36,186 nucleotides of DNA from Fragilaria crotonensis (Eukaryota; Bacillariophyta; Fragilariophyceae; Fragilariales; Fragilariaceae), in contig JAKSYS010000641.1 of the NCBI GenBank assembly GCA_022925895.1, positions 1 through 36,186 on the forward strand, given 5' to 3'. The notes below the pieces were generated by a model that was not told where the DNA came from, made no database searches, and was given only the letters and a program-made list of their open reading frames with translations. Shown here one piece after another: positions 8,638 through 36,184 of the stretch. The translations under genes and the position numbers were made by a program. How positions within the stretch are numbered: the first letter of the stretch is position 1; every line of letters begins with the position of its first letter.

Positions 8638-10298
8638 TCGTATGCTTGTTTTGCTTCAACATCTCGCGCTGCCTCTTCTCCCCTTTTGATTCTTGATATG
8701 CAATTCTTCCAATAGTCAACGTGAAACTCAACCCGAGTCTCATCAGATATAATATCATAGTAATGATGTCCGAAATCTGTGTCTAAGGTCTTGATCGTAG
8801 CAGCTTCACTGAGTGGAAGCTGAATCCAACGCCGACAACGTGGCTCAAGCACGGTAAGGTAGTTCTTGCAGAATGCATTTCGATGTGCGACAACATCTTC
8901 ACGTTCATGGCCATCGACGTAGAAGCTCTTCCTTCTCGTATCATACTTGAATCCGAGTAATCGCATCCAGCGCCATGCTGTTGTGAAGCTCATGTTTTTA
9001 AGTCTATGTGCGCGAAGGAATAGCGCAATATCATCCTCATCTTGATCGACATCGACAGGATTGCTAGTAGGATTAATGGCTGTAGTACTTGTACTCAATG
9101 TTGACGTTTCTGCAGTATCTTCGTCTACTACCGATTCACGTTTCCACAACGCAGCCAGCCTTGGGATTACAGACGAATGAACGAATTGATAGACTGCTTC
9201 AATTGAAAGATGTGACAAGTTCTCGACGCCAAATGCAACAATCTGCTCCTTTGCGCATGGAAACACTTCGAGAACTCGAGGAAGAGGTCGTTTCCCACAC
9301 TGAACAGACAAGTTTGGGTTTGGGAAGCATTCAAAATTACGGAACACAATGTTCCAATTTGCGATGGTTTTATAGAAGGTTGCTTGCGTCATACCAACAG
9401 TGTTCAATACCTTACAAGATTCAGTGCAACAGTCTTGCCACGTCCATTCATTCATTTTTGCAAGAGCCAATCGGTACGCATAACAAAGAAACGTCGCCCT
9501 TTGCCTGACAGCGCATATCTCAGCTTTGGTACACACGTTGTCGATATCTCTACCTTGCACAACATTCCTCCAATTATTTTCTTCCTCATGAACGCTTTGA
9601 AGCAGTACAATCCTTCTCTGAAGTGCTTCCATTGGAGTTTCAGAATCGAAATCAGTATCATTCCCATCCTCGCAATTCGTTGTCCCATGTTTCTTTGGTG
9701 GTTTGAACACTCGGTATGCCTCTGGGCTACATGGCCAGTAACTTGAGCTAGAAGCATCAGCAGCAATCATTACAGCGGCCGCACCAGTATCTCCTATCCT
9801 TGCTCGTTTGCTCGGTGATTGCTCAACAATGTCTCCGATCCTTCCTCCCGTTGTAGCCTCCGTGTTGACAGGTGTAGTTATCATTGTGTCGAGAGCGGGT
9901 CTTGATCTTGTGCTTGGAATGACTAGCACATTTGCGGCTGCTTCCATTACTTTTTCGTTCCATGCACTGTTAAGTGGACATGGGTACCGTATCTGCCTTG
10001 ATTTCTCTGTGAAGTAGTAATAGAATGTGTTCTTGTATGTGACTCTGAACACTCCTGTTGTGTTTGATCCATCAAATCGGTGCATCAATTCTCCGAAAGA
10101 AGCCGACTTGGACATCCCTGTATTGAACCTTCTTACATCAATGACGCCAAGGGACGCATTGACATCAAATCTCCCTAAAGCTTCAGCCCAAGTTGATGCA
10201 GGAAGCCAGCAATTTGACAATCTCGGACCATACGTGATGTCTGTTCGAAGTAGCATGACGGCATCAGTCAAAATAGCATATTTACCTTTGTCAACCAT
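8613..10298 (-). pseudogene. DDE transposase, N-terminal half (561 codons)
   Basis: ATG at 10298 opens a 561-codon frame. The first 100 residues are of unknown fold. A low-complexity Ser/Thr/Ala linker follows, and the second half has helix-turn-helix-like stretches (MTQATFYKTIANW; NMSFTTAWRWMRLLGF). The latter is followed by SFYVDGHEREDVVAHRNAF, a signature I associate with DDE-superfamily transposases of fungi and diatoms; it normally precedes the catalytic core. The frame stops at 8613 just before the expected QDE catalytic motif, which is encoded in an overlapping frame starting near 8637. A frameshift within the 25-50 bp overlap therefore splits the gene. Confidence 0.72.
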
Positions 10299-13800: not shown

Positions 13801-14043
13801 GAGCGGTTCTCCTGGGGTGTCCCTGATGCTGACGAGCTTGTGAAGTTCTGTACCCGAAACATGGGATGGGAGGCCTCGGAAACAAGACGAATGCTGGACC
13901 CTATCATCAAGAGAGCTGAGGGTGGTATGAGACAGACTCGACTCGATACCTTTATGAGGTATTCTGACAATATTCAATTCGCCGACGTCAGATCAAAACG
14001 TTTGCGCACGGTGTTCGAAGGGGTTCGGAAGGATACGGCGTGA
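10861..14043 (+). CDS. XPG: XPG/RAD2-type structure-specific endonuclease (nucleotide excision repair)
   Basis: This 1060-residue protein starts with MGVRGLWRLL, the invariant start of the XPG/FEN1 family, which fixes the start codon. The XPG-N domain spans about residues 1-105, with Asp30 (IIAIDAS) and Asp78 (LVFDGPTP). A long acidic spacer follows. The XPG-I domain is at about 740-900: ESPAEAEAQC (Glu811, Glu813), VTEDSDVFVFG (Asp832, Asp834) and GGDYTDGVKGVG (Asp883, Asp886, start of the helix-hairpin-helix). A C-terminal QTRLDTFM (1025-1032) resembles a PCNA-binding box. All metal-binding acids are present. Overall length and a spacer of more than 600 residues match XPG/Rad2 rather than FEN1 or EXO1. 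In this family the enzyme makes the 3' incision around bulky DNA damage in the nucleus. The spacer has a duplicated UIM-like motif. Single exon, intact. Confidence 0.96.
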   Translation: MGVRGLWRLLLPIGRRISIEVLEGQIIAIDASIWLTQFLKAMRDPDTGSVKPAAHLIGFFRRLAKLRFHGIRPVLVFDGPTPIIKRRELALRRQRREQFAPTADGAVLRLAKRLLIQEIKKSKQLQKENDGAVQVDGFNLPSDDRPHGESVNLKRRGSDNDAVVMKVDAQLEETSEEVARALQEQEWQLDDRVNTPEGAVHAETSEEIARALQEEQWDDGQENSERAPPNNDWDLPIQEENSDESSSTRPFKKLRSGVDPFRDHDGTLDVVYLNSLPASTRKDVIEEALRKQRLNSRKEFMPVAGQPAEYSKVQLRNFLRSTRLNKSIVKMGQQSTTLSATEGEQIASDPTRRMIFEKFDEQVKLKSSVGFVQKGLKDEVDSDADWDNGTDAEESNCNVDLSRNVKRKKMVIVDSSDEDDQLDKGASPSIAVARSDVLDVQCPSSPVPISNDDFQGGGFLKGTPDSSNDQLGQTISTYEYQGYGSIHTLKEGKSEHSHQSHLQDREIACALLSKAPEKAVTSDGQNADDDSVDWEDGDAAPDSDDDSRGSVSVETLPDCPRTTPMIDENFDTLNDEKIVTQNLAALYQAQSTAANLTNWAGRAFRRAIAQHEENGVINASAVGSKASTSRADRVAFRPLASLPTQAIDGPVANDEGGKGILGAIISSDDVEGHETRLPTGGEFATPEKDTQGGESVINALDGFKPAIHRHEPDTDNVVDLRKLGAPPTELGGESGQHETDDVRAASGVRTERTRPVDRTNATQELLAEEEELEAERRRHARDMQTIDDEMKSEIISLIKLFGIPYLESPAEAEAQCVALEALGLVDGIVTEDSDVFVFGGKTIYRNMFDDQKFVEVYRAEDAMKEMSLGREEMVAMAMLLGGDYTDGVKGVGIVNAMEIMEAFPMSPDVKEGLRKFRTWLDGFDPLDVSVSSSSDIEGLTGLQRFHASHKSARLRWICPPNFPAENVLNAYLNPVVDTSSERFSWGVPDADELVKFCTRNMGWEASETRRMLDPIIKRAEGGMRQTRLDTFMRYSDNIQFADVRSKRLRTVFEGVRKDTA

Positions 14044-15963: not shown

Positions 15964-17886
15964 TTGATCGATTTCCTTAAGAATATGATCATCATGACTG
16001 CTAGATGGCGATTGGCCCTGGTACTTGTGTCCGTGTCTATTGCAAAAGCCACCACCATCATCGACGCAACTGCTAACTTTTCCCCGTCAAGTGAGGCCGA
16101 GTACGATCATGAAATCATTTTGATCCCAGGAGAAATGGCCTTTCACTGGAACGATGTGAGCGGGAATACAATTGACTGTCGCCTTGTTCATACGGCTCCT
16201 TCCGTCGACAAAGCTCCTTCCTGGATCGGGTTAGGTTTTTACGATACATTCTCCAACACCGATCCTATCAGTGCAGATTCGCAACTCATCATCGGTTCTG
16301 ACGCCGTGATTGGGTTGGTGGCAACCTCAATTGTCAAGAAGTATGGTTTGGACGGAATGACCGTTAACGCAACCGACGGTGTTCACCCTCTAGAGCATCA
16401 GACATTGATTAATCCTTCCATCAAGCAGCACAATGCTGACGACGGAACTGCCACGACTATCTTGACATTTACCAAAGAGTTGGAGGAATCGAACGTTGAA
16501 GAGGTGCGACTACGAAAAGAAGGGATGAATGTCTTCATCTTCGGCGAGGGCGCACCCGGTGAGACCACCCTTGTCATGAACGACCAATGGGGGGCATTCA
16601 CGCTGGACATGGCGGCTGTCGAAGCTCGTACTGCATATGGGGAGCCCGGAAGCTCTTCAAAAGGAACTGACGGAGGCGCGTCCACTTCGGATGGAAGTGC
16701 CAACACAGCCCGCATCGTTGATGGACAATGCGGATCGGAGCTCGAAGGGTATGATCACCAATTCATAGCGACATCAGACGTCACCTTCTATTGGAAGATT
16801 GATGGAAACATTCTCAAGGCTGCTCTCAAGGTTAAGAAAGTTGCTTGGGTTGGCTTTGCTATCTCTGACAATGGAATGATGATTGGTTCCGAGGCCATCA
16901 TTGGAATGCCTTCCGAGTCAACCGCCACCAAATATATCCTTGGTGATAAGCAAGTAGGGGCAATTGTTGCTACCAAGGATACAACGAGCTTGAAGGCCGC
17001 ATCCATCCAACAGGGAGATGGATCCACAACATTGACCTTCGAGAACGCTTTGGATGTCTCCAGTGACACGCACCCAATTATTTCGACTGGCCTCAATACC
17101 TTCCTTTTTGCTGTTGGAAAAGACAACCAGTTTGGTTACCACGCAAGTCGTGGAAGCTTCCGTATTGACTTGGCCAGTTGTGAGGGTTCCGGAACGACGA
17201 CAACGAAGACACACATGGGTGCATTCGCTGCGCACGGAACTATGGCTACGTTGGCATGGGCGATCGCATCGCCGTTCGCAATGACAGTTGCATGGTTCCG
17301 AACTCTCGTGCCAAGTTCATGGATTTACATTCACGTTTTCTCAAACGTGTGCTCGTTCTTCTTCACTCTCATCGCAGTTATCATTGCAATCTCAGCTGTC
17401 AGCGTCCAGCAAGACTCATCGCACTTCAATAATCCACACCATTGGGTGGGCATCATCATGTTGGTTGGAATAACTTTCCAAGTCATGAATGGTTTCCTTC
17501 GTCCGCCGGTTGAGAAGCGAGACCCATACTCCACTTCGCACTATGATATTGACCGCGGCTTCATCAAGTGGCCACGGTCTCCGCGCGAGGTTTGGTATTT
17601 CTCTCACCGAGTGACTGGTATATCATTGCTCGGGATGGGCATTTACCAGATTGTGAGTGGTTTGGATCTGTTTGCTGCAAACTATAATGTGTCCAGTATC
17701 GCTCCTTTGTTTTGGGGTTACGTTGCAATCTTCGCATTCTGCTTGATTTCTCTCAAGTTCTGGATCATGTATGAGGAGTACAAGGCTCGTCGTGGAATGG
17801 AAGCTATGCATGTCGAACACCGAAGTGGTGCCTCAGCTGGAGGTCCCAGTGATGACCTCGTTCCTGTCCAGTTCGACATGTCTTGA
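15964..17886 (+). CDS. DOMON-DOMON-cytochrome b561 membrane protein
   Basis: This 640-residue protein starts with a signal peptide (hydrophobic core LALVLVSVSIA, likely cleaved after AKA). Met1 (15964), Met8 or Met11 (15994) could each be the start; Met11 gives the most usual signal peptide. Two DOMON-like beta domains follow (about 45-225 and 255-405), both with the FxW and SWIGLGF/AWVGFAI patterns, separated by a Ser/Gly linker. The C-terminal half has about five membrane helices (420-600) with four conserved histidines suited to two b-type haems: His424, His457, His492 (or 493) and His548 in FSHRVTG. Such proteins pass electrons across a membrane, often from ascorbate to ferric iron or another outer acceptor. 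The two DOMON domains would face the lumen or cell exterior. The tail is cytosolic and charged. No introns, no defects. The exact substrate cannot be told. Confidence 0.93.
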   Translation: MIDFLKNMIIMTARWRLALVLVSVSIAKATTIIDATANFSPSSEAEYDHEIILIPGEMAFHWNDVSGNTIDCRLVHTAPSVDKAPSWIGLGFYDTFSNTDPISADSQLIIGSDAVIGLVATSIVKKYGLDGMTVNATDGVHPLEHQTLINPSIKQHNADDGTATTILTFTKELEESNVEEVRLRKEGMNVFIFGEGAPGETTLVMNDQWGAFTLDMAAVEARTAYGEPGSSSKGTDGGASTSDGSANTARIVDGQCGSELEGYDHQFIATSDVTFYWKIDGNILKAALKVKKVAWVGFAISDNGMMIGSEAIIGMPSESTATKYILGDKQVGAIVATKDTTSLKAASIQQGDGSTTLTFENALDVSSDTHPIISTGLNTFLFAVGKDNQFGYHASRGSFRIDLASCEGSGTTTTKTHMGAFAAHGTMATLAWAIASPFAMTVAWFRTLVPSSWIYIHVFSNVCSFFFTLIAVIIAISAVSVQQDSSHFNNPHHWVGIIMLVGITFQVMNGFLRPPVEKRDPYSTSHYDIDRGFIKWPRSPREVWYFSHRVTGISLLGMGIYQIVSGLDLFAANYNVSSIAPLFWGYVAIFAFCLISLKFWIMYEEYKARRGMEAMHVEHRSGASAGGPSDDLVPVQFDMS

Positions 17887-18010: not shown

Positions 18011-18808
18011 TTACAGCCATCCACTTTTACTAAGGCATCCAGTTCCCTGGATAAGTTTTCCTTCTGTCTTTTTCTGAACGAAGCATTGCAATGACGTCAG
18101 ATTTTGCTGGGAAAGTTGTAACTCGCGGAAGACAACGGTCTGCATAATGAGACGCGACGTCTCCAGGATTTCTTCGTGGTAAGGTAACGAAGAAGAACCC
18201 ACACGGGCATCTCCGGCGCCCAGGAGTTGCTTGCTATGCTTGAAGGCCTTGCCTCCACACTTTCCACATGTTGCAAGGATTTGCTTCTGCAGAGAATCGC
18301 AAAAAGCAGGAGCTACGTCAAGGAGATCAACAGCCATACGCAGAGCCTTCCGGACATCGTTCCCTTGAATTGCGTCAGGTGCCTTCCCAAGCACGCTACG
18401 AAGATGCTCAAGATCGGAGAGAACTCTGGAACAGATTCTCGCGTGACGGATGAAGAGCGATGTTGATGATTCTATTTCGGACTTCGGTGGCAGAGGTTGT
18501 CTGAAATGCAACAGCGCCCTTGGCAGCATCACGTCCCCGATGGATAACATAATCTTCCGGAAGTGTTTGCTGACTAGGGAAAGGCGCACCAAACTCTTAG
18601 AAGCGGCCCCCAAGAAATCCAGCACGCCGCAAAAGACATCTGGCGCAAGCCTTTCAAGCGAAGGCTGCGTCTCCTCAGTTGGCTTCCCTAATCGAGTTAA
18701 TTGATGACGTATTTTCTTCGCCTGGGGCTCCGTAGGGTCGATGTCATTTGAGGACAACATCTCACTTAGGCAACGTCGTCGCCTTGAAACAAAAATTGAC
18801 TTTGACAT
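18011..18808 (-). CDS. F-box-like protein
   Basis: The minus frame is open from 19300, but I prefer the ATG at 18808 (MSKSIFVSRRRRC). Upstream of about 19060 the sequence is GTAC-rich, like the intergenic DNA of this window. From 18808 the protein has 265 residues. A basic N-terminus is followed by SLERLAPDVFCGVLDFLGA and SLVRLSLVSKHFRKIML (residues about 50-88), an F-box-like pattern: Leu-Pro replaced by Leu-Ala-Pro, then a V..VL.FL core and an LxLVSKxFR end. F-box proteins recruit targets to SCF ubiquitin ligases. The C-terminal 175 residues are helical with an ATCGKCGGKAFKH motif, but no known substrate domain (LRR, WD40, kelch). The start is uncertain and the F-box call is moderate. Confidence 0.62.
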   Translation of the reverse strand: MSKSIFVSRRRRCLSEMLSSNDIDPTEPQAKKIRHQLTRLGKPTEETQPSLERLAPDVFCGVLDFLGAASKSLVRLSLVSKHFRKIMLSIGDVMLPRALLHFRQPLPPKSEIESSTSLFIRHARICSRVLSDLEHLRSVLGKAPDAIQGNDVRKALRMAVDLLDVAPAFCDSLQKQILATCGKCGGKAFKHSKQLLGAGDARVGSSSLPYHEEILETSRLIMQTVVFRELQLSQQNLTSLQCFVQKKTEGKLIQGTGCLSKSGWL

Positions 18809-19300
18809 AGGCGTGGACGAGCAATTTGGCTGAATTTTCTTCTGGTAGCGCGAAGTTTTGTGTTCGACGCTGAAGCGATTCGTTTGTGGTCCTTCGTTTT
18901 GATGATGCGTCCATGACAAACATTTTGTGAGCGTCGACGTGCAGGGGCGAGCTGCCGTTCCTTGGAGTGCGTGCTGACGTCTGCTCAATACGTCCATCAT
19001 AATGATTGTTTCTATAGACATCAAAGAAGGATTCGTAGCCATCCTCGGACATTCCATTGACCAATTAAAATTTTCAGTTGACCACGTCGGCGTTTGTGAT
19101 GTAAGATTCGTTTCTATGCACACGTCATGCCCACAACAATTGCTGACGCGTTCACACGGGAAACGGGAACCATGGTTCAGAGTGTACTGGAGTAGAAGTA
19201 CTTGTACCTGGTAGTACGAGTATCTCGTAGCTCGTACATCTGTTATCAGTACTGTACCGCCCTCGAGTGACTGTGGTTGTCCACACGTCAACATCATCAA

Positions 19301-22287: not shown

Positions 22288-24201
22288 TCAATCGTTGAAG
22301 ACATCAGCATCCTCGTGCTCGCCGTACATGCTGGTTTGTGTCAAGCCCAATATTTGGGCCGAAAGTCGTCTGTGAGCCTCGACTCTAGGTGAAAACACTC
22401 TTGGCCGCTTTTGGCGTGATTCAAATTGTGACTCCGTTAGACTAGTTCTCTCACTGGGGAAAGCAGAGTCCTTCACATCATAAAGTTCAGCAGAGGCTTG
22501 CATAGGGCGATTCGTGATTTCTACCATGAGAATTCCAACGAACAGGAGAAACATCAAGAAAGGAGCTACCAGGGCGTAGATACTCAACTCGCGATGATGC
22601 AAGCTGGTTTCGACTTCCTCAGGAATTTGCAAGACATACGCTGCAACCAACCCCGGCGTTGTAAAGCCCGCAACTGAAGCACACATGGAGAGTATGGCTT
22701 GCATTGATCCCTGGCTTGCCGATAGTACCTCGCTGCGGTCCACCCCCTTGGTGAACACTGACCTAGTTGGCGCGGCCAAAAACGGAAAGCTGGAAACGCC
22801 GAGGAAAATCGGAATAATGAAATTCCAGACAGATGAATGCCACCTCCACAAATCCCAGACCAGGGTGTATCCAATGACGCTGAGGAACGAACCGAAGAGG
22901 ATCATGGTTTCATCCCTTACTTTTCTCGAACTAAGAAAAGAGACGATCAACATATTCAAGAAGATGATGATCTTTAAAAACAGGAGACAGCAGATGTGAG
23001 AACATAATATCACGTGGCTTCGACACACGTCGGGAACAATTGGTCGGTTGTAAAACTTACAGACAGAGAACCGAGTACCCCCGAAACAGCGACTGGTGTC
23101 CATCCCATGGCATGACTGGCCGCTGGGGCAAACGCTGTTTCAATCCTATGAAAGGATGGAATAAGAGAGTCAGCTCGAGGAGTTACCATACCTCAAAATT
23201 ATGCGGCGTTCGACGAGACACTTACAATTGAAATGCGGCGTTGAAGCTGAAGATTCCAAACATGGGGACCAATATTTCGGCACGAATAAGAGAGCGAGCG
23301 CATTCCCAGAAGCCAACCTCGTTGGTATCGTTCGTAACCAATGAGTTTGAATGTGCGACAGAATGGTCGATTTCTGGCTCGTCAAGCAGGCAATAGATGA
23401 CTGCTATTGCGACAACGTTCCCGCCCATTAAGATGAGACCGACCGAGTTGAGTGGGCTAACATGCAGGCTAAACCAAGTCATATCGACTTTTGCCAAGAA
23501 TATATTAATACCTGGCCCACATGCCAGTCCAACAATTCTCACCATACTGAGCAATGAGTTGACTTGGGTTTGCTCTTCGTGAGGAACCACCTTCGCCAAA
23601 TAGGCAAAGCCAAGCGTTCCACTAGCAGCACCAATTCCGCCCAGAAGACGAGCTGTCAGAATCAAGCTGACTGCCTTCGCGTCACTGTATGCATCAGCAA
23701 TAAGGTAGAGAAAACCGCCAATCGCTGCGATGGCTAATGTCACGAGGTAGGGTAGGCGAAATCCACGCTTGTCGGACCAATATCCCAAAAATGGTTTGCC
23801 GCAAAAGGAGGCAAAGGAAAAGGCACTGACGATGATACCGTACTGTTCCTTTGTTCCGCCGTTCTCCAAGACGTAAAAGACGATGGAGGGCGCCACAACC
23901 ATATGGGAGACTTGAGGTAAACCATGATTTTCGCGGTGCGGAACGCGACATGTCAGACATCAGCAAGGAATGACACTGTTGCTAATTCTTCTCCTGATAG
24001 GTGGGACTTACTTGAGTCTACAGCGCCGACCAGCGCAAGAGCAATCAGCCACTTCTTAACCATGGTAAGAGAAGAAACACTACCGCTGTAGTCTTTTCGG
24101 ATGAGGTTTGAGCCCTTTGACACTCGAGATTCGAGCTGTTGGGTTGAGTGGCAGCGTATCTTTGGATGTTCGGCGTTTCGCGATGGAATAACCGGGAACA
24201 T
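22288..24201 (-). CDS. Major facilitator superfamily transporter (four exons)
   Basis: Exons on the minus strand are 24201-24012, 23910-23226, 23145-23061 and 22971-22288. All three introns (101, 80 and 89 bp) begin GTAAGT and end AG, and joining the exons gives 1644 nt, one uninterrupted 547-residue frame. Transmembrane segments are evident throughout. The loop-2/3 signature GYWSDKRGFRLPYL after SFCGKPFLG is the classic MFS motif. A second half begins with ETAFAPAASHAMGWTPVAVSG and ends in a hydrophobic ALVAPFLMFLLFVGILMVEI. The N-terminal 46 residues before MVKKWLIALALVGAVDS are hydrophilic, so ATG at 24063 is an alternative start. The C-terminal 80 residues are cytosolic, Ser/Arg/Glu-rich. 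Overall it is like lysosomal/vacuolar MFSD8-type or drug-transport MFS proteins; the substrate is unknown. Confidence 0.9.
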
Positions 24202-24576: not shown

Positions 24577-25167
24577 TGACAGTGTTCGTGTGATCGGTAC
24601 ACGAGTACTGGCCGACGGTAGACTTAAGGTTAGTAGGACCTAGAAGTCTAACGTTGGACTTGACGGGTGAGGAAGCGAACCTGACGGATCGTCCAGCTTT
24701 GGGCGATGGTGTTTTGTAGACATACACCATGGCGGTAGATTTGTTGATACAAGGATGTAGAAATGTAGGAAACTAAGTAGTAAAGGCCTTTACTGTTTTT
24801 GGTTTGTGGAAATTATAAGATGAATTGGAATGAAAAATGAAGGTGAGACTTGCAACATTAGTTGGAGTCTCACAAATGAAGTGTTGTCTTAGTCCCACTT
24901 CCTGAGTGGTGTTTGGGAAGTGTTGTCCATAGTAAAAGAGTGTTGTTGAAGTTATCAACAACACTCATGATTTAATTACATAGGAAGTAAATTCAAATAG
25001 TTTTGTGTTGCAGACCGGTAGTACCAGGTTCTGATCCGTAGCATTCTACGGGAACGGGTCACGGACAGACTAAGAAAATAATGGACTGTCTATTGTATTA
25101 CCGTATGGTATTTAACCTTACAGTAAGACGAGAGACAGTGTGACAGAGTGACGGTAGATTCCTAACA
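24577..25167 (-). repeat. 3' LTR of the right Copia element (591 bp)
   Basis: Boundaries come from comparison with 35597-36184. The copies start together at TGACAGTG and end together at CCTAACA. Differences are four substitutions and four 1-2 nt indels, several in homopolymer runs. The first ~185 bp (the end adjacent to the leader in the 5' copy) are identical. It contains a 51-codon frame on the minus strand, a 12-bp hairpin (24938-24966) and a GTACCAGGT motif at 25021-25029. Confidence 0.95.
24938..24966. repeat. Hairpin in the LTR
   Basis: A 12-bp perfect inverted repeat (GAGTGTTGTTGA and TCAACAACACTC) with a 5-nt loop. The same hairpin in the 5' LTR is at 35955-35982, with one mismatch and a 4-nt loop. 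It may form a structure in the element RNA. Confidence 0.7.
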
Positions 25168-25830
25168 CCCCTCTTGGATCAGATCTCTGGTCCCGGTGAT
25201 GAAAGCATGTGGTCGGGGAGAACACAGAAGATCTTGGTGAGGTGAGGATCGATTTTGCCGGAGTGTTGGGTTTGGTGAGGATGTCGGCAAGTTGAGAGTC
25301 ACAGGGAATCCAATGAAGTTGGTGAATGCCGTCTTGCTGGCCTTGACGGACGAAGTGGAAGCGGCGTTCGATGTGTCGCGTCTTGCGAGTGAGTTTTCCA
25401 TTCTTTGCGATTTGGACGGTGGCTTCATTGTCAATCATGAGGATGGCAGGTATGGAAGGAAGACGTTGGGTTGATTCACGCCATTGTTTGGTGCCAAGAT
25501 AGAGCATATCGTAGAGAAGCATTCGGATGTGAGCTGTGGCCATTGTGGCAGAACATGCGGCCATGTATTCAGCTTCAGAAGTAGACATTGCAACAGGTGT
25601 AGGCATTGTAGATTGGCTTCAATGAGGGCACCATTGTAGAAGATCATGTATCCAACAGTGGAACGGCCAGTGTCAGGGCAGTCTTGCCAGCTGGCGCCGG
25701 AGAAAACGGTGAGATCGGAGTATGGGATACGATGGTGAAGGCAGATGTCATAGATGGATTTGAAGTGCCATCGGGGTAGAATTTGAGAGCGTAGTAGGGG
25801 CGGCGGCGAAGATAGCCGATGAGCCAAGAT
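25118..25830 (-). pseudogene. pol: Copia RNase H and end of pol, stop codon inside the LTR
   Basis: 25827-25640 reads ASWQDCPDTGRSTVGYMIFYNG, the first acidic residue of RNase H. After a shift, 25606-25118 reads MSTSEAEYMAACSAT (the second, Glu), then LMIDNEATVQIAKN (Asp), RKTRHIERRFHFVRQ and SQLADILTKP, the end of a Copia pol. The frame runs on through the polypurine tract and 50 bp into the 3' LTR before stopping. RNase H removes the RNA strand during cDNA synthesis. Confidence 0.87.
25168..25176 (-). other. Polypurine tract of the right Copia element
   Basis: On the minus strand AAGAGGGG immediately precedes the TG of the 3' LTR. This is the usual place and composition of the plus-strand primer in LTR retrotransposons. 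It is also translated, as the Pro-Arg-Gly of the pol frame, which continues into the LTR. Confidence 0.75.
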
Positions 25831-25989
25831 AGGGCTCGAAAATCAGGTATGCCAGGAGAGATGCATGCTTTAGCAAGTTTGCAGACAGCAAATAGGATGT
25901 CAGCTCTTGTATTGTATGCAAGGTAGAGGAGAGTGCAGACAGCAGAGCGGAAGGAAGGCGTTGTTGCTTGTTCGACGAGGGTAACGTCA

Positions 25990-27130
25990 GAGGCGGTTAC
26001 GGGCGGTTATCCTTGCTGAAGGTGTAGTCGGGAGGAAAGGGGTATCGCGTTCGGGAATTCGGAATTCGGGTCATAACGTTGGAGAGTATTCAAAACGTAG
26101 CGGTGTTGATCCAGAGTATAGCTTGAGTCGGAGTGTTTGTGGATACGCATTTGGAGGAACCATTGCGCAGGTCCGAGGAATTTGACATCGAAGCGATTGC
26201 GGACGGAATCTTCAAATTGTTTTTCGATGGAATCGTTGCTTCCAGCGTAGAGCATATCATCGACGAAAAATAGGACGGAGCCATTGATTGTGTTTGTCGT
26301 ATCGGACAAAATAAGACGGTTCGGAAGGAGATTGGATAAAGCCTTGGGAGTAGAGCCATTCCGAAAATTCAATGTTCCAATATTTGCCAGAGTAGACGAG
26401 ACCGTAGATTCCTTTGTTCAGTAACATTGGGGAGCCAAAGAATTTAGCGTATTCAGGGAAGTGATAGGCGTATTCCAATGGCAGTTTCACAAAGTGGCGG
26501 CCAATAACTTTGGCTTGGAGGTAGGCACCAATGAAGTCAGCACTCTTGACACTTCTTCTGGATGCACAGATGGTTGCAATGAATAGTTTGACCCCTCTTG
26601 CAGATGCACAGGGTGACCAGGTGTCTTCATACATGAGTGGTTCAACAGGTATAGGTTTTGGAGTGCCAGGTGAATTGGTAGATTCAGCAATTTCTTGACG
26701 TTGTTCAAGGTCGTTGTTGGTTGATGGCTTTGACTCTTTTCAGGAGACGTTTCTCCAGGTCGCCACGGGCGACAAGGCGAGCTTTTAGTTTGTCAAGTTT
26801 TCCAGTTGCAGTTTGTTTTGCTTTGAGCACAAGTTTGACTGGGATAATGAGTTCATCTTTGTGTGGAGTTTGTCCAAGGATGAAGGTATCATGGTCAATG
26901 AGGTTCTTGATTTCCATTTTGATTGCATGTAGCCAAGCATTGCGGACATTATCATCAAGTTTGAGGACAGCTTTGAGAGACTGAGGTTCTGGAAGATATT
27001 TGTCCACAGGTTCCTGGGGGTTGGCTTGTGGATTGTTGCTGGGAGAGTTGTCAATTGTCATCATGGCAGAGTGAATGGGATCAATAGTTGGTAGATCTTC
27101 ATTGCATTCTTGGAAGTAGATGGTCATCAT
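25990..27130 (-). pseudogene. pol: Copia reverse transcriptase (RVT_2), frameshifted
   Basis: Three frames cover the domain. 27130-26705 has the start: SLKAVLKLDDNVRNAWLHAI, then KARLVARGD. 26634-26257 has the first catalytic Asp in SADFIGAYLQAKV and the RT core LLNKGIYGLVYSGKYW. 26372-26007 has FVDDMLYAGS (26256-26267), the polymerase Asp pair, then FLGPAQWFLQMRI. Each motif fits Copia RT well. The frames overlap but are not continuous; at least three shifts are needed. The downstream connection to RNase H near 26000-25830 is also shifted. Confidence 0.87.
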
Positions 27131-27134
27131 CTTG

Positions 27135-28220
27135 TGGAGTTAGGAATGATGTTGTTGATGGGTGACAAAGTTGATTTGATGTGGTGTGGGTGGTGTTGGA
27201 CCATGTGGAGGAGTTGTATGTTTGATTGCAGCAAGTGTAGAAGGTGGTGGATCATCTTCATGGGCATTGTCATCAGTTTCAGGGATGGCAGGGAGGGAAG
27301 AATGATGGTTGGAAGTATCAATGAAAGTTGATGGTGGGTTACCAAGGTTGGCTGCAGAGCCAGTTTGATGGTAGGTAGATGGTTCAGAGTTCTCTGGAGT
27401 GTCACGAAGTCCATGCGGATTGAAGTGGGAGCGGATGGGTACGGCTCCAGCAAAAGGTTTGGAATCGAAACAGAGAGCGGAGTTGAAGTCTTCATCGAAG
27501 TAGGCATCGCGGGTTATGATGAGGCTTTGGGGTTGGTCTGGCGAGTAGATTAACCAGCCTGCAGAGTTGTCGGGGAATCCAAGGAAAATACCGCGGGATG
27601 CACGTTGGAGTTGTTGCTTGTAGGTTATAAGTTTGTTGCGGAAAGTTGGTTCGTAGCGTTTGAAGAATGTTGGACATCCGAGCGCGGAAGTTGGCTAGGA
27701 AGGCTTGCGTTGAAAGCTGTATTGATAGGGAGTTGTTGGGTTGCCATCTTGGTCAATAACATTCTTGGCTGGGCAGACATTGAGGATTTGAACAGCATAG
27801 GCATGGGCATGATGGAAGAATGCACCTAGTCTTGCATTGTTCAGAAGGATGTTGGCAGTGTTGTGGACTTCACGCCATTTGGCTTCGCAAATGCCATTCA
27901 TTTCTTGATGTTCAGGTGCTGCAGCTTCAACTTTGATACCAAGTGAAGTGCATTCAGAAATGAATTTGGTTGAGGTGAAAGCAGATCCAGCATCAGTGCG
28001 GATAAAACGGACAGATTGGGTGCGCCAAGGTTCTGTGTCAGTTAGCCATTGCTTCAGAGCAGTAATAATGGAAGCTGTGCTTTCAGTTGGGAGACCAATC
28101 CAACCTGTTAGTTTGCCAGGTGTTGTGACAATGAACAAGTAGGCTGAAAAGTTGGTATTGGTTGTGAGACCATAGCGGAAAGGGTTGCGCATTAGGTCAA
28201 GATGAAGGCGGTGGAAAGGT
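27135..28220 (-). pseudogene. pol: Copia integrase (core and C-terminal region), frameshifted
   Basis: The first catalytic Asp is in HLDLMRNPF, just upstream of 28192. The second is in IRTDAGSAF (Asp67 from 28192) and the Glu in MNGICEAKW (Glu103). Exactly 35 residues lie between them, the DD35E spacing. After a frame change near 27695 the C-terminal region reads CPTFFKRYEPTFRNKL, then GIFLGFPDNSAGWLIYSP, the conserved integrase end of Copia. A low-complexity Pro/His/Ser linker follows before the reverse transcriptase. All three catalytic residues are encoded, but in more than one frame. Confidence 0.86.
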
Positions 28221-29022
28221 TCAGTGCCTTGGCGTTGAGGAGTTTTGTTGCGGGCACGTTTTGGCTGATTGAAATGCGTAGAGGCCAGGAGTTGTGATCA
28301 ACAGTAGGTGTCAAGACATGGTCATTCCATGTTTGGTGAAGGGATCCGACCATAAGATTGCGGAAATTTCGGAAAGCAAGTCGTCGGTAGATGAGTTCCA
28401 AAGGTAGGGCGGTGACTGAACGGCGTTGATCGGTGTCAACAGGGGGTGTAGTGTCATCAAAATGTTGTTCATCAGGTTCAGAGTCAGGGTCAGAAGGTAG
28501 GTTAGAGTTGGAGATGGTTGAGAAGGCTTGTTGTGATGAAGGGAGTTCTCTGGTCAGTATTGGCCAAGTGTATGTGGAACCATTTGGGAGTTGGATTGTT
28601 GTGGCTCTGTTCTTGATCAGGACACTGAAGTTTTGGGTGCATGATAGAGCAGTTAAGGAGAGGAGTCTGTGGCTGAGACCTTCAACATAGTAGACATCAG
28701 TGAGTCCTAGGATGGACTTGAGGCCATCATCAGTGGTGAAGTGGCATGCAGTTGTGCCTTTGTGAGTGGACATCTTGGTGCTGCCATCAGCTAAGGAGAT
28801 TGGAACACTGCAGGGTTCGACATCGTGGAGGTCGCTGAAGAGTGGAGTATAATGGCTGGTAGCACCACTGTCAGGTAGCCAGTTTTCAAGATGTGGGGGA
28901 CCAAATCTTTGGTATGGTGATTGGGGATCATCTGGAAAGTAAGCTGTGGCTCCAGAGTTGGGAGGAGAATAATTGGCAGATGGTAGATAATCTCTGTCAA
29001 GGAGAGGTTGGTTGATGGTCAT
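28193..29022 (-). pseudogene. pol: Copia protease and gag-pre-integrase region
   Basis: The active site DSGATSHYTP (Asp51 counted from 29022) is preceded by HLENWLP, the standard start of Copia protease. Flap-like and later patterns are present (VPISLADGSTKM, LTDVYYVEGLSHRLLSL). After a Glu/Asp-rich linker comes LELIYRRLAFRNFRNLM, where a gag-pre-integrase HHCC region is expected. The frame stops at 28192 overlapping the next one. The protease is complete in one frame, unlike the rest of pol. Confidence 0.85.
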
Positions 29023-29244
29023 CTGAGGTAGGTCAGGATTGGGCCAAGGGATGTTGGATGGGTGACCATCAGTGTTGTCAAAAGATGAGGCTGAAAAGGC
29101 TTGGTGGTGGTATCTTGATTGGTCTGGTGAGTTTTGGCCAGAGTCAGTGATGAAGTAGGCGCGTTGTTGGTTGCGGGAGCAGCGTTTTCATTGTTGGATG
29201 GTCTTTGAGGGTTGGTGGAGCGATTGTTTTGGTTTGATCTGGGT

Positions 29245-30551
29245 TTAGCAGTTGCGCGCATAGTGGCCGAGGCGTCCGCAGTTATTGCAGACGATTGTAG
29301 CGGCATTGGAAGGGTTGCGCGAATGGTTGTTGTTGATCCGTTAGGAGATGGACGTTGATTAGACTGGACGTCGGTCGGAAAGGTGGTCGATTGTTTCGTT
29401 GAGGCTGGTTGGATGGCCGCGGGAGGGTGGTGGTCGACGTTGATTCGAGTTGTTGAATGGTGGTCGAAGGATTTGTAGGAGGTCGGAACGGGCGCGAATG
29501 GTTTTGCGGTGGTCGCGGTGGTTGGTTTCGGTTTTGATTGTTGCTGCTGGGATTGGAATAAGGTCGAAGGATGGAACTGAAAGCTTGTTGTTGTCTTTGT
29601 GTGAAAACACGTTGGGTAGTTTGGTTGTGGCGCGGTTGAAAATGGTGGGAGTGGTGACCACGGGCAGCGTTGGCGTGTTGGTTGTAGTTGCGGTGGTTTT
29701 GGGATGGGAGTGTGAGGCCACGGGATTCGTCAATGTTCAGGAGATGGCTTTCGAGTTCGGCGAATGGTGGCAGAGCTTCGTCATTCAGTTCTGCTCGACG
29801 TATGTCGGCGTCGAAGCGTTGATAGGATGCGGCGTAGAAGGAGTGATTGCTTCCACCACGAACGGTGCGTTTGATGAGTTCGGCGTCAGTGTTGGGTATT
29901 CCAGCATGATAGCAGTCGCGCGTGAGAAGGCGAATGCGGTTGAGGTAGGAGGTTGCGACTTCATGATGTGGTTGTTTGATTGAGCAGAAAGCTTCACGAG
30001 TTCGTTCAACATGATCAGGAGTTAGCGGAGCGCAGTGGCGTCGTAGAGTGAGAATTGCAGTCCGAGCGTGGGCCATCAATGATGTGTTTCTGGCAAGGGT
30101 CGCAAACGTTTGTGAAGATCAAATTGTAGATAGCAGTGCCAACAAAAGGGTGTGAATAGGACACTTGTTTTGGCCAAAGATCAAAGACTTGGCGCGTCCA
30201 CGGGAAATGCAAACAATTCGAAGGTTGTCAATGAAGGTGTTAAATGTCGGCGGCGTGCTTGAAGGTCGGGTAGGCCAATTTGCGAAGGTTAGCATTTTTG
30301 GCGTATTTCAAAAGTGTTTTCGTGAGGTCCTCGATTGGCGGATAAGTAAAATCGGTTCGCGTTGATGATGTGAGCGCATCAGGGATGTGTGTTGAATGTG
30401 CTTGTTCTTCTTCTGAATCATGGTCTGTGTCCTCATCAAAGAAGGTTTCAACAGTGGGAGGGTATGTGAAGGTTGCGGTCGCCTGGCGCGGAGTTGGGCG
30501 TGTTGCAACGGATTTTGGTGCATTTTGGGGTTTTGGTCGTCGTTTCCAAAA
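29245..30551 (-). pseudogene. gag: Copia Gag (UBN2-like region plus one zinc knuckle), frameshifted
   Basis: The open stretch from about 30551 reads an acidic segment (FFDEDTDHDSEEEQ), then PPIEDLTKTLLKYAKNANLR and, after a 1-nt shift near 30243, NTFIDNLRIVCISRGRAK. After further shifts near 30110 and 30066 comes ARTAILTLRRHC, then REAFCSIKQPHHEVATSYLNRI, the helical UBN2-type core. A Gln/Asn/Arg-rich tail follows. A single knuckle CNNCGRLGHYARNC (29248-29289) is in a different frame again and is followed at once by TAA (29245-29247). In this family Gag forms particles and packages RNA. As written it is broken in at least four places. Confidence 0.8.
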
Positions 30552-30992
30552 TTAGGTGATTTTGCGTAGGTTTGGCAGATTTCGTGCTGGGAGGTTGAAT
30601 AATTTCGTTGTGTTGATTTTGGGGTTGCGAAAGATTTTGCGACGGATTTGGTGGTTGGGGTTCAAATTTTGGGGTGAGAACTTTTGGTAGGTATAATTTT
30701 GGGTGTCGTCGAAAAAGTTGTCGAAATCGGAGGTTGTGGGTTCGATTCGGTGGCGTCCGGATTGTGAGGTAATTTTACGTTTTTCGGCGTGAGAATGCCT
30801 GAAAATGCATCGGAGAAGCGTTTTAGAGGCCCAGTTGTTGATTTCGCAGTTGGAGGTGAGTTGGAGGGTGTTTTGGTGTGTGAACTGCTTGTTTCGGGCG
30901 AGTTTGGTGGTAAAAATGCGAGATTTGGTTGAGTTCGGGCAGTTGTTGAGTTGTTTGTGCGTGTTCGTCGTATGTAGTTTCTGCGTCGGAAA
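30552..30992 (-). other. Low-complexity spacer between pre-gag block 2 and Gag
   Basis: The plus strand is rich in G and T, so the minus strand is rich in A and C, with no frame that looks like a folded protein. A minus frame from 31233 to 30823 is Gln/Thr/Asn/Pro-rich. It may be an unstructured linker or untranslated spacer. Confidence 0.4.
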
Positions 30993-32222
30993 TTAGCTGT
31001 TGGGAGTGAATTTCCGGGCTGTCGGTGTGTTTTGCGTTGGATTTTCGCCGGTAGTGTCGTTTTTGCAGGAATTTCGTCGCCGTGTTCGTCGTAAAAATTG
31101 CAGTTTGGGGTTCGTTTGGTGCAAAATTTGCGTTTGCGGGTCGATTTGTGCAGGAATTTCGTCCTGGGGTCCGGGGTTCGAGTCGGATCCGATAATAAAG
31201 ATGAACGGCGAGTTGAAACGGCAAGACATGCAATGTGGTCCAGAAAATGTACTATTGTCCTGTTGAAAGGTAATTATATTGTTACTTGCAACTGATTCTA
31301 TCTGATTGGGACAGCTTAGACTGTCACAGATAGAAAGAGGTAAGTAACCAGCATAACAACCAGGATAATGTAAACATTGTGAACTAGACTCACCATAGTT
31401 TGGAACAGGTGAATCAGATCCCATGAGATCAATGAATGGGAACTCAGGGTGGTTTTCCTTTGCAGTGTGATAGTAAGAGAGGAAATTGTTGAATAGTTGC
31501 AGCTCAGGGTCGCGGAGGGCATTGTCAAGGTGTGGAAGAGCCCATGCTTGATAAATAGTCTGCCCACTGGGGCCTGTGGTATAAACTGGAATCAAGCGGA
31601 CAGCCAAGGAAAACGGGATGCGTTTGGGGTCGCAGGCAACGTGGTACAAGTCGGCATCGGGGTGGCGACGTAAATCGGCAGTGTGGCGTGGTATCCAATC
31701 CGGGTCGTTAACTTGATCAGGGTGGATTGGTTTGGCAGTCTGGGTCCGAAAGAGGCGTTGAACTGTGGAACGATTGTAGGCTTCACCAGAAATATTGTTG
31801 ACAATGATGGATCCAGAATGGTCAAGGTTGATGGGAAAGCACCAGTTGTTGGGTAGGGAGCAATTTCAGTTGGGAGCCAAAGCAGTAGGTGGGAGCTTGG
31901 AGTGGGGAGCCCTGGAAAATAACAACATTGGTAGGTGGGTAGTTCTCTGATAATGCCAGTTGGATCTTTGGGATGAAGCAGTTGCACAACTCGGAATAGG
32001 ACGTATTCAAAATGGGGCAGGAAGTCAATGAATCGTTGACGGTGTCGGTCGCTATCGGAGTGAGGCGGTTGTAAATCTCCATGTTTGAGGGATCGCTGTC
32101 GAATCGGTTCATGGCGATGAGCTCCTGAAGGATGAGGGGATTGCAAATCACATGATTGATGGCCAAAGTATCTCAGTCACATTGTCAAAGGTTAGTTGGA
32201 CATCAGAAGGTGTAGTGATCAT
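30993..32222 (-). pseudogene. Pre-gag coding block 2 of the right Copia element, unknown function (about 410 codons, frameshifted)
   Basis: ATG at 32222 overlaps the stop of block 1 as ATGA. It reads MITTPSDVQLTFDNVTEILW, then shifts frame near 32165. From there it continues NHVICNPLILQELIAMNRFDS, CFIPKIQLALSENYPP and, after another shift, QTIYQAWALPHLDNALRDPE to a stop at 30993. A Cys-containing part (CLHYPGCYAGYLPLSICDSLSC, then GPHCMSCRF) precedes FIFIIGSDSNPGP at 31167-31190, which resembles a 2A-type NPGP motif. The last 50 residues are low-complexity. I recognise no domain. The start resembles the beginning of a Gag (a short leader before a xxNxxxW motif), so this could be the true gag start. 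Confidence 0.5.
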
Positions 32223-35200
32223 TGGGTAGCAGGTAGCAAAACTGGAAAGGAACATGTCTGCAGGGGGAGGTTGCCAATGAAAACTTGGTTGTTGTTGAGT
32301 TCAGGTTGCTTGGAGCGCTTTGACATACGATGGATGATAGCATGTTGAAAAAGAGCGACGTTAATCAATTCGCAGGCTCGGTCAGACGCAATCTCTTTGG
32401 CTTCGGTGGATGACGTTGGGAAAGAATTGATGTAGTCCGTTACATAAGGTTGCACGAGTTCAAATTCCGTTTGGAGATAGGGCAGTTTGTCGCGATAATA
32501 TTGATCAGAACGGTGGCCAAGGGATGTTCCGGGGAATAGGTCGTCGACTTCGTCAAAGGCATCGTGAACAAAACGGGGCAGGAGGTTGAAGGTTGTTGTA
32601 TCGGGAAGGAGACTTAGAGCGGCGGCAGTTGATTTGATTTCCTTTGCGATTGCGAAGAGATGGTCCGGGTAAAAATAGTGCTCAGCTAGTCCATGGTCGC
32701 GGCTGAAATAGTTGCGGTGATGCGTGATGTATAGTAATCTGAGCGCGTAGATGATGGCGACTGCGCATCGTGTTTCCATCGGACAGTCTGGAGGGTCGTC
32801 GTGGAACGCGTCGTCGATGTCGCTGAATGCTCGGGGAGTTCGGGGGCAGGAACTGGGAGCGTTCGTTGAGGTGTTGACGACCATGTTGGTAGCGCGATTG
32901 AGGGTGTGCTTCATGCTACGTAGGAGCAGGAGTTTATCGGGTCGTACATTCAGAAGTGGGATGTTGGTGCCGGAGATCAGTTCGTCGATATACATGTGGT
33001 TGCGTATGACGTGAAGTAGGATGTGGTGGATGAAGTGCTTGTCGAGGCCACGGATGATGTTGAGTTCGGGTGGGTCGGCGAGTGTGTTGATGCAAAGGCA
33101 GAGATAGTTGCACTTGTGCGAACGCAAAGCGGTAGGTCGCGAAGGTGAATCGTGCCGTTGATTGTGTCCATTAGCATTGCCTCGGTGAAAAACAGGTCGC
33201 GTGACGGAATGTGATGGAAGTGTTGGAACATCCGAAAAGGGTGGTGATGAATGGCGTCGAGGGGTTGGCGATCGCAACGGTGGGGCAGGCGCAGAGGAGG
33301 CAGTAGTCTGACAAGTTGTTGTATAGCTGCACTTGGTACCTCATTAGGTTCACCAATATCTCGGTTAGCGTCGCCATTATTGTCAAGATCATCCTCCACA
33401 ATGTCCATTGGTTCGGGATCAGGGTCGTTTGCAACTTCTGGTAGCGGATCTGGGTCGGCATCAGGATAAAAGTTAACAGTTTCCCTAGTTGAGTCATTAT
33501 TACTGCAGGAGTAACAATGATCGGCAAGGAAAACATCGGCATCATCAGCTTGGGAGCTTGGCAAATCTTCCAATTTGATTGGGACAGGGTGCTGAACATC
33601 CAAATAGGTCAAAGTCTCAGAGGAAACGGTCGGATTGTGGGCTCTGCAGGCCCATTGTTGTGGATTGGGGGAGGAAACCGCGGTACGAACGACAGTAGCG
33701 TTGTTTCCCGTGTCAACGGCAGCACAGTACGAGAGCGATGCGTTAGAGCCGTTAACGGGACGTTTCACAGAATCGGAAATCTCCAAAATGACGTCAGGAA
33801 TCGGACTTGACGTGGAAAATTTTGAAACGGAATCGAGGGTTGTTGAGTTGTCGGTGCGAGTTGGTTCGGGATCGGATTCCGAAAAGAGCAGGGGCTGTAC
33901 TGGGTATAGTTCGTAGAACGTAGGCGAGGTAGCTGTGGGAGTTTTGGGGAATCCGGGATTTCTGGGTCAATCGGGAAAAATCAGTACAAAATTGCGGGTA
34001 GCAGAGCCGTTATCACTGTTCTCATCAGACGTCATAGTTTTGAGTCGCGAGTCTGCTGAGTTGTCGGCACCCACCAAAGTGCCGAAATGACTCTTAGAAC
34101 TTTGAACAGTCGTTTCTCGAGATCTGTCGCTTCGAATTCGCTCAAATTTGGGGATGTTGCTGAGAAGGCTGTACTGTGGCGCCTGGCATCGCGTAGTGTG
34201 GCGTACCAGCGCGTGTGCGATCATGGTGAGTGTGTTTTGAACTGACATCAAATACATGTTCCCAGTGGCTCTGATGATCTCGTCAACGTCGTCTTGGATC
34301 GTCCCCAGGGAATATGAGGCTTTAATTGGCTCCTCATCTTCGGTGAACATGTGAATTGTGCAAACGTAGCGAGCCATATCGATGATGTCCAACTTCAAGT
34401 TGCTGTGATAGTGGGATAAGTGCTGATCGGAATTTGGCGCGTGCTGATCGGTTCTGCAAGCGAGCTCGGCGCGAATCGCCTTCGTTGTCGGGACGGAGCA
34501 CGAGGCGGAAAGAAGAGTTGGAAAAGCGTCATCAATTAAATCCAGGATGTCTTGAGAGAGGTATTGCAGCGACGTCGGATCGTCGTATGGATCGATTTGG
34601 GGTCGCGACGTGCGAGGGCGACGACGGGGATAAAATCTGCGAGCGCGATGCCTGCGCTTCGAGGGAACCGTAGGGGCGAAGTAAGCTCCTGTGGTGGTGT
34701 TTGGATGGCGGCGTGGCGTCCGCGATGTCGTTGTGGAGTGATGGTCCAGTTGTTGAAACTGGTACTGTTGTTGGAGTTGGTAGTTGTAGTACTTGTGTCC
34801 TGTCCTCCTCATTATCATCTGTAGGTCCAATGTCCTTGTAGTTACATTGGTAGATGCATAATTCTTTGTAGTTTGATCATCTGGTTCAGTATTTGTGCCC
34901 TTTGTTGTCATCCGTAGTGATTGAAGTAGTAGTTAGTAGTTGGAGAAGTGGCTTGCATCTTTGCAGCCATCTTGGTTGGAGTAGTAGCCCTGTGGCTAAT
35001 GTTGGTGCCCTGAGGAGAAGGAGCTGCAATCTTGTTGTTGCGCTCATGGAAGTGGAGGTTGCGATCCTCCTGGATGATCTGGTCAAATTGTCGTCGGAAT
35101 TGTTGGCATGGTAGGCGGCTTGGGACCTTTCTTGATGGAGGTGCGCTTCTTCTTGGTTGGTTGATCCTGATCGTCATCAGGGGTAGTGTTGGGAGAAGGA

Positions 35201-35408
35201 AAACGGTGGACACGTTGATGCTTGGATCCTCTGGGAGATCCGAAAGCTAAGGCTCCATGATAGAGGCCAGGTGGGCGTGTCGGGAGGACAGGATTCGCGC
35301 CGATGGGGCGCGAACGTCGACGTTATCGTCGAAGGCATCGCGGTCTTCGGCCTTACGGGCGGACCTAGAGATGCGAGGGGCAAGGGTGGGCGGGATGGCG
35401 TTCTTCAT
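32219..35408 (-). pseudogene. Pre-gag coding block 1 of the right Copia element, unknown function (about 1,060 codons, frameshifted)
   Basis: ATG at 35408 opens a frame (MKNAIPPTLAPRISRSARK) that ends at 35247; coding-like sequence continues in shifted frames. Best parts are 34911-33967 (314 codons), a further stretch in the same frame after one TGA, to about 33130, and 33277-32219 (352 codons). Visible features are a basic PTKKKRTSIKKGPK segment (35119-35163), a Gln/Tyr-rich run, an Arg-rich KRRHRARRFYPRRRPR (34612-34659), an acidic Asp/Pro tract (DADPDPLPEVANDPDPEP) and long helical regions such as DIIDMARYVCTIHMF and AIIYALRLLYITHHR. No known domain. It lies where normal Copia elements have only a short leader. 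It might be a giant Gag extension, a separate accessory protein or captured host sequence. Confidence 0.55.
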
Positions 35409-35596
35409 GGTGGACTTGGGAAGCTTCTGTTCTTCAATGGGAGTTTAAATTTGCTGCTGGCGAGTCCGTGAGGAGAGGGAAATTAATAGCAGTTAAACTC
35501 AAATTGTTAACGGCCGTACGAAGGTTCGCCCAATGATCGGACGAGTAATTCTCTCGACGGTAGAGCCTTGGACCGGTGGTTCGAGGCGAGCAACCA
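35409..35596 (-). other. Leader between the 5' LTR and the first pre-gag ATG
   Basis: The 188-nt leader holds the primer-binding site and the end of a small frame that begins inside the LTR at 35750 and stops at 35499. The first ATG of the pre-gag region is at 35408. No other element is evident. Confidence 0.55.
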
Positions 35597-35750
35597 TGAC
35601 AGTGTTCGTGTGATCGGTACACGAGTACTGGCCGACGGTAGACTTAAGGTTAGTAGGACCTAGAAGTCTAACGTTGGACTTGACGGGTGAGGAAGCGAAC
35701 CTGACGGATCGTCCAGCTTTGGGCGATGGTGTTTTGTAGACATACACCAT
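35499..35750 (-). other. Small frame starting in the 5' LTR and crossing into the leader (83 codons)
   Basis: The frame starts MVYVYKTPSPKAGRSVRF and runs through the LTR edge and primer-binding site to a stop at 35499. The first 51 codons lie in the LTR and are identical in the other LTR copy (24577-24730). It is basic and Ser/Thr/Pro-rich. I do not recognise it. It could be an upstream ORF of the element mRNA or simply open sequence; whether it is transcribed depends on where the R region starts. Confidence 0.35.
35579..35596 (-). other. Primer-binding-site candidate of the right Copia element
   Basis: Directly abutting the 5' LTR, the minus strand begins TGGTTGCTCGCCTCGAAC. A primer-binding site must begin TGG to pair with the tRNA 3' CCA, and its position fits exactly. 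I could not assign the primer tRNA from memory: the implied acceptor stem is unusual, so the pairing may be shorter than 18 nt. Confidence 0.6.
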
Positions 35751-36184
35751 GGCGGTAGATTTGTTGATACAAGGATGTAGAAATGTAGAAACTAAGTAGT
35801 AAAGGCCTTTACTGTTTTTGGTTTGTGGAAATTATAAGATGAATTGGGATGAAATGAAGGTGAGACTTGCAACATTAGTTGGAGTCTCACAAATGAAGTG
35901 TTGTCTTAGTCCCACTTCCTGAGTGGTGTTTGGGAAGTGTTGTCCATAGTAAAAGAGTGTTGTTGAAGTATCAATAACACTCATGATTTGAATTACATAG
36001 GAAGTAAATTCAAATAGTTTTGTGTTGCAGACCGGTAGTACCAGGTTCTGATCCGTAGCATTCTACGGGAACGGGTCACGGACAGACTAAGAAAATAATG
36101 GACTGTCTATTGTATTACCGTATGGTGTTTAACCTTACAGTAATACGAGAGACAGTGTGACAGAGTGACGGTAGATTCCTAACA
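35597..36184 (-). repeat. 5' LTR of the right Copia element (588 bp)
   Basis: Second copy of the LTR. As the element reads on the minus strand, this copy would carry the active promoter and 5' end of the transcript. Its hairpin (35955-35982) has one mismatch and a shorter loop than the other copy. The last two window bases lie just outside it. No certain TATA box is visible. Confidence 0.95.

Follow-up and report, generated by a model that had tools for sequence, protein, structure and literature searches.

A large pre-Gag region in frame with Gag in Copia retrotransposons of the diatom Fragilaria crotonensis

The DNA stretch analysed here (the window, 36,186 nucleotides of Fragilaria crotonensis contig JAKSYS010000641.1, C604) carries at its right end a Ty1/Copia retrotransposon, which spans positions 24577–36184 on the minus strand and measures 11.6 kb between the ends of its long terminal repeats (LTRs). 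All element features given below lie on this strand, and copies were searched for in 881 contigs (62.1 Mb) of the genome. The 5′ LTR (35597–36184) and the 3′ LTR (24577–25167) are identical in 584 of 593 alignment columns, with four mismatches and five gap positions, and their termini TGTTAGG...TGTCA are of the TG...CA type characteristic of Copia elements. The domain order of pol is also that of Copia and comprises a protease region (28195–29187) with the motif DSGATSHY and a Pfam Pol_BBD match (4.1e-10), an integrase (27698–28297) with a weak rve match below the Pfam cut-off, a Copia-type reverse transcriptase (26010–26739; Pfam RVT_2) and an RNase H region (25121–25618), recognized by eye from its motif and without Pfam match. 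An earlier note on this DNA had described a Copia element with two LTRs and precisely this order of pol domains, and the element is assigned to Ty1/Copia (Pseudoviridae). A putative polypurine tract (AAGAGGGG, 25168–25175), read from the sequence, adjoins the 3′ LTR. Target duplications of 5 bp flank all five copies whose right end was fetched (CACTG in L010, CCAGG in L018, CTACT in L013, CGCGT in L025 and CAACT in L021); they were read there because the window copy reaches the contig end, located 2 bases past the outer edge of the 5′ LTR.

The 5′ LTR is separated from the Gag domain (29285–30368, start near 30368) by about 5.2–5.3 kb of coding-like sequence, in keeping with the extra sequence that the earlier note had reported at this place. 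This pre-Gag region can be divided into an N-terminal region (33272–35747), which is partly of low complexity and acidic, a core of ca. 700 residues (31191–33271), which constitutes an orphan conserved domain, and a linker to Gag rich in Pro, Asn, Thr and Ser (30369–31190). The CCHC knuckle (CNNCGRLGHYARNC), seen in natural copies, follows further downstream of Gag.

The pre-Gag region is family-wide and part of the element. A 1.2-kb piece of it gave 40 scored DNA matches, 31 at 94–100% identity, including the window, and nine at 74%. Among 20 close copies fetched, the LTR is joined to the pre-gag sequence in 19, of which 18 continue unbroken into Gag; the region is thus part of the element, as the earlier note had held, and common to its family; for the window's family the survey contradicts the opposite possibility that other copies lack it. 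Protein searches with two cores yielded 79 and 80 matches, and core-bearing elements of five families were read: A (that of the window), B (L031, L034–L036), C (L032, L033), D (L042) and F (L043, L044). Beyond sequences named F. crotonensis, relatives of the core are found in the JGI/ENA proteins P0011, P0019, P0020, P0021, P0026, P0027, P0031 and P0032. Among the matches listed, 84 of the 137 merged gag loci are preceded by a core at a distance of at most 3 kb; the best 63 and 64 core candidates entered this pairing, in which the gag loci represent a lower bound.

In the window copy the pre-gag sequence is split over several frames, and other copies break at other positions. Insertions and deletions of 1–2 bases are rare and enriched in homopolymers (122 of 258 events, compared with 17% of the bases in such runs), and the assembly report describes a MinION/Canu/Pilon assembly with Illumina polishing, comprising 61.85 Mb in 879 nuclear contigs (PMC9476933). 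Because of this clustering and the nanopore origin of the assembly, sequencing error in repeats fits the frame breaks, and real decay is possible too. Since the coding strand has a high A and C content and almost all copies have stretches that are stop-free in each of the three frames, long frames alone constitute weak proof of coding; that the pre-gag sequence codes is concluded from the codon-position test described below, in which the substitutions of the core are concentrated at position 3.

Through their mutual overlaps, the natural open frames of family A form a single frame extending from the LTR ATG through pre-Gag, Gag, the CCHC knuckle and the protease into the integrase (L028/L020, 198 residues at 96% identity; L020/L021, 280 at 99%; L021/L017, 171 at 98%; L017/L019, 116 at 96%; L019/L023, 501 at 99%). 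A single unbroken natural frame of 2284 residues leads in L031 (family B) from the LTR to the CCHC knuckle, passing through pre-Gag and Gag, a frame of 2498 residues in L042 (family D), 2075 of which were read, connects the N-terminal region with Gag, and the ENA protein P0026 (1814 residues) combines an acidic N-terminus, core, Gag, CCHC knuckle and protease. In L033, L043 and L044 (families C and F) the frames span the junction between core and Gag, the remaining parts being broken. Full single frames are therewith found in two families (B and D) and in P0026, and an open junction in three further families (A, C and F); natural sequences of all five families and P0026 contain no stop from core to Gag, and the linker is open and in frame in L021, L031, L033, L042, L043 and P0026. 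Rather than forming a block beside Gag, the pre-gag sequence makes up the N-terminal section of the Gag-Pol frame. This frame is opened by the ATG at window position 35750 (35748–35750, GCCATGG), the first past a TATA-like box of the LTR (TATAA near 35836), and natural open frames run across it in L014, L028 and L031; the location of the probable start codon within the LTR is well supported. A putative primer-binding site (TGGTTGCTCGCCTCGAACCACC, 35575–35596) directly 3′ of the LTR consequently lies inside the coding frame. Its letters are identical in 19 of the 20 fetched copies, the exception being the truncated L026, and the putative site TGGTTGCTCGCC is common to families A, B and C, again within the coding sequence; a search for the primer tRNA gave no match.

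Substitution sites were counted between L020 and 19 other copies, and all omega values derive from plain counting rather than from a full substitution model. In the core, codon positions 1, 2 and 3 carry 18, 7 and 71 substitutions (71 of 96 at position 3; chi-square p 1.3e-16), corresponding to 69 synonymous, 27 non-synonymous and 0 stop changes and an omega of about 0.12. The corresponding values are 2, 1 and 26 for Gag (omega about 0.05) and 5, 1 and 27 for the protease-integrase part (omega about 0.08; one stop), and the core of family B gave 11, 8 and 40 substitutions and an omega of about 0.19 from three copies. Purifying selection acts on the core among recent copies; a Ka/Ks below 1, named by the earlier note as supporting evidence, holds there. 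The values for the region upstream of the core are 41, 24 and 44 (omega about 0.58; one stop), and those for the N-terminal region counted from L014 are 32, 33 and 47 (omega about 0.61; two stops; p 0.15). At about 1700–1960 of L014, within the N-terminal region, L014 and the otherwise near-identical L020 contain two distinct versions of a segment of ca. 70 residues (KWDVIDLARYIRQINAFTEDEVP... and KLDIIDMARYVCTIHMFTEDEEP...), which looks exchanged between elements.

Over larger distances the core changes much faster than Gag despite being selected, as is seen from identities far below those of Gag. Families A and B are 58% identical in the core and about 96–98% in Gag; among L031, L042, P0020 and P0026 the core identity drops to 29–37%, compared with 81–89% for Gag among L031, L042 and P0026 (P0020 is without Gag). 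Between A and B, omega amounts to 0.19–0.26 in the core, where the synonymous divergence of 0.9–2.2 is near saturation, to 0.33–0.46 in the N-terminal region, to 0.39–0.75 in the linker and to 0.01–0.03 in Gag, which thus appears nearly frozen beside a fast-diverging N-terminal partner. The synonymous divergence of the N-terminal region and the linker is about 0.25–0.42, versus 0.7–1.0 in Gag and the still higher core values; recombination or a constraint at the nucleotide level could underlie it.

A related lineage lacks the core. In L046 (C354:7700–10300), one open frame takes in the N-terminal region, the post-core tail and the beginning of Gag, nearly the whole core being absent with an in-frame join. 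A 289-residue query across this junction is matched contiguously in the best 20 loci, L046 included, and 19 of these are stop-free within the match; L046 was read directly and the other 19 were assessed by match coordinates. Open frames of this lineage reach 1496 residues. In family F (e.g. at C113, C340, C869, C278 and C25) the same query splits near residues 121–125, its halves being ca. 2.04 kb (ca. 680 residues) apart. In nine core-less loci whose Gag match is full-length, Gag is 87–89% identical to that of family F and 79–81% to that of family B, but the Gag of family D is equally close to F (89%), so that Gag alone leaves them unplaced. Their post-core tail is mostly 56–75% identical to family F as against 36–38% to family D, and family F also matches their N-terminal half, with no family D match among those listed. 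As the core is located at the same site in every core-bearing lineage read, we infer its loss in this lineage as a simpler explanation than separate gains.

The core matched no known family or fold in the sequence and model searches made. Neither Pfam, PDB sequences, NCBIfam, PHROGs nor phage records contained a match, viral contigs provided no confirmed relative, and the pre-gag frames of L020 and L014 have no Pfam domain at E values up to 1, in agreement with the earlier note, which had recognized no domain. An origin of the core as a duplicate of Gag was ruled out (hhalign probability 0.4%). The structure prediction suggested in that note produced AlphaFold models, whose best-modelled part, residues 1–145, is predicted to be mainly helical; the accompanying structural search gave no match over the thresholds. 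No clear membrane segment was detected in five proteins, which contain 0–2 hydrophobic 19-residue windows of at least 1.6.

On this basis we propose a Copia clade in which a long frame started in the LTR encodes a polyprotein of pre-Gag, Gag and Pol, the core being a particle-borne module, a reading to which we attribute about an even chance. Translation would begin at the LTR ATG, such that pre-Gag is made first, ahead of Gag and Pol. As an N-terminal extension of Gag, pre-Gag would enter the virus-like particle, and the protease of the element would probably cut it free at the low-complexity linker. The core would most likely serve as an outer-shell or matrix-like module, or contact a host factor for localisation or silencing escape; either role would fit a domain that diverges fast beside a near-frozen Gag. 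The core-less lineage may rely in trans on the core of relatives that share its nucleus, or no longer need one. More tentatively, and at somewhat less than an even chance, these elements would represent a distinct clade of diatom Pseudoviridae with a new particle architecture, with an LTR-started, Gag-fused pre-Gag of ca. 1800 residues that includes the founding member of a domain family, and with a core-less relative multiplying either by borrowing in trans or independently. Should this be true, autonomous and core-borrowing Copia families share one nucleus. The natural deletion makes the role of the core (in particle, host contact or silencing) comparable between two lineages.

Several observations weigh against the proposed polyprotein. 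Incorporation into particles, cleavage and function of pre-Gag are deduced from sequence, and splicing or an internal start of Gag might make pre-Gag a separate product. The frame continuity covers the part from LTR to integrase, the stretch from integrase through reverse transcriptase to RNase H lying outside. The N-terminal pre-Gag region is weakly constrained (omega about 0.6), and the AlphaFold models of the core are poor (mean pLDDT, the predicted local distance difference test, 49.4 and 53.6) with no fold assigned. The 20 loci spanning the core-less junction imply that a core of their own is dispensable for some elements. Among the copies surveyed, nothing upstream of element position 3098 is present in L026, and L024 ceases to match at element position 5309, short of Gag; the nearest same-strand Gag of L024 among the matches listed follows ca. 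8 kb on (C396:27216–27656), an insertion-like arrangement. Among the matches listed, moreover, no core precedes 53 of the 137 merged gag loci at a distance of up to 3 kb, and in 11 of 95 merged core loci gag is missing from the 3 kb that follow. Neither number proves absence, because the core scoring covered 63 and 64 candidates, the gag loci are a lower bound and C558, one of the 53, contains a core (L044); some of the 53 belong to the core-less lineage.

The pre-Gag part might alternatively be a separately expressed accessory protein comparable to ORF1 (open reading frame 1) of Ogre elements, with Gag-Pol produced from a spliced mRNA or from a start of its own. The long low-complexity linker and the markedly different rates of core and Gag are consistent with this, and Drosophila copia makes its Gag from a spliced mRNA. 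However, the passage from core to Gag is stop-free in five families and one ENA protein, and L046 retains N-terminal region, tail and Gag start in one frame even without the core, which suggests that the fusion matters; we consider this explanation unlikely, though deserving serious attention. Somewhat more doubtful appears a silencing suppressor or other factor of host counter-defence, fused to Gag and maintained by an arms race. The low core identity across distant lineages compared with Gag, the omega of the core above that of Gag and the relaxed N-terminal region would be expected of such a factor. But structural surface parts also diverge fast, no known family was matched, and the omega of the core, well below 1, gives no indication of positive selection.

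An envelope-like protein relocated to the front of the element would account for an extra long protein in an LTR element, but its position upstream of Gag, the fusion and the scarcity of hydrophobic windows in the five proteins render it very improbable. Least credible of all, and hardly worth entertaining, is a nested insertion, one-off capture or non-coding relic confined to the window copy; the broken frames of that copy would agree with it, but the copy survey with its 31 close and nine more distant matches among 40, the 84 core-associated gag loci among those listed and the purifying selection refute it.

Besides the element, the window contains host genes assigned by Pfam: an XPG/FEN-type nuclease (10861–14043, plus strand), a DOMON-cytochrome b561 protein (15964–17886, plus strand), a possible F-box protein (18011–19300, minus strand; below the cut-off) and an MFS transporter (23222–23902, minus strand). 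Two long frames of 406 and 561 residues at 7417–10298 (minus strand) are without Pfam match. In GenBank, fragments of the element appear among the MHU86_* proteins (P0001–P0018 and others) under the label of hypothetical host proteins; P0010, one of these fragments, is annotated as ‘Mitochondrial protein’, and several MHU86_* models seem to bypass frame breaks. This may serve as a warning that the diatom gene catalogue holds many element pieces under the name of hypothetical host proteins.

Copia elements are usually simple, consisting of LTR, gag-pol and LTR, and the ca. 1800 residues ahead of Gag described here are largely unmatched to known proteins and partly under selection. The yeast element Ty1 also starts its Gag frame in the LTR and has its primer-binding site in coding sequence, but contains no large pre-Gag module such as is added here. 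In envelope-bearing Copia elements of the SIRE type, pol is followed by an Env-like protein that has membrane segments, whereas the extra protein here is upstream of gag and has no clear membrane segment. Ogre elements, which belong to Ty3/gypsy and have the reverse transcriptase before the integrase, possess an extra coding region ahead of gag as a separate ORF1. In contrast, the integrase match precedes RVT_2 here, unlike in Ty3/gypsy elements, and the Ogre-style extra ORF envisaged by the earlier note gives way to a region that continues without a stop into the Gag frame, as seen in natural sequences of five families and one ENA protein. An extra coding region and a long element are nevertheless shared with the plant Ogre/Tat elements, as far as the accessible text describes them (PMC6317226). 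The plant mobile domain, given there for 57% of Ogre elements, had no Pfam match at E values up to 1 in the L020 and L014 frames (PMC6317226). Extra proteins with lineage-patchy presence are also described, in the text available, for LTR elements of bdelloid rotifers; those are encoded by an ORF3, some with enzymatic matches, whereas the one here is N-terminal and unmatched (PMC5408684). No description of a pre-Gag Copia architecture was found in the literature by title or start of abstract, a search covering neither Repbase nor most subscription papers. A further comparison is with CoDi, the diatom Ty1/Copia elements of Maumus et al. 2009, which according to the accessible parts of that report have the same order of protease, integrase, reverse transcriptase and RNase H and TG/CA LTRs in 23 of 26 families (PMC2806351). 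A possible ORF1 ahead of the polyprotein ORF was likewise sought in that study, and those parts, compared by description rather than by sequence, describe no pre-Gag domain (PMC2806351). With full lengths of 5182–8062 bp, CoDi elements are exceeded by the 11.6 kb found here (PMC2806351). In view of the pre-Gag region, the N-terminus of the Copia polyprotein would appear able to host new functions, beyond the Ty3/gypsy elements known for pre-gag ORFs.

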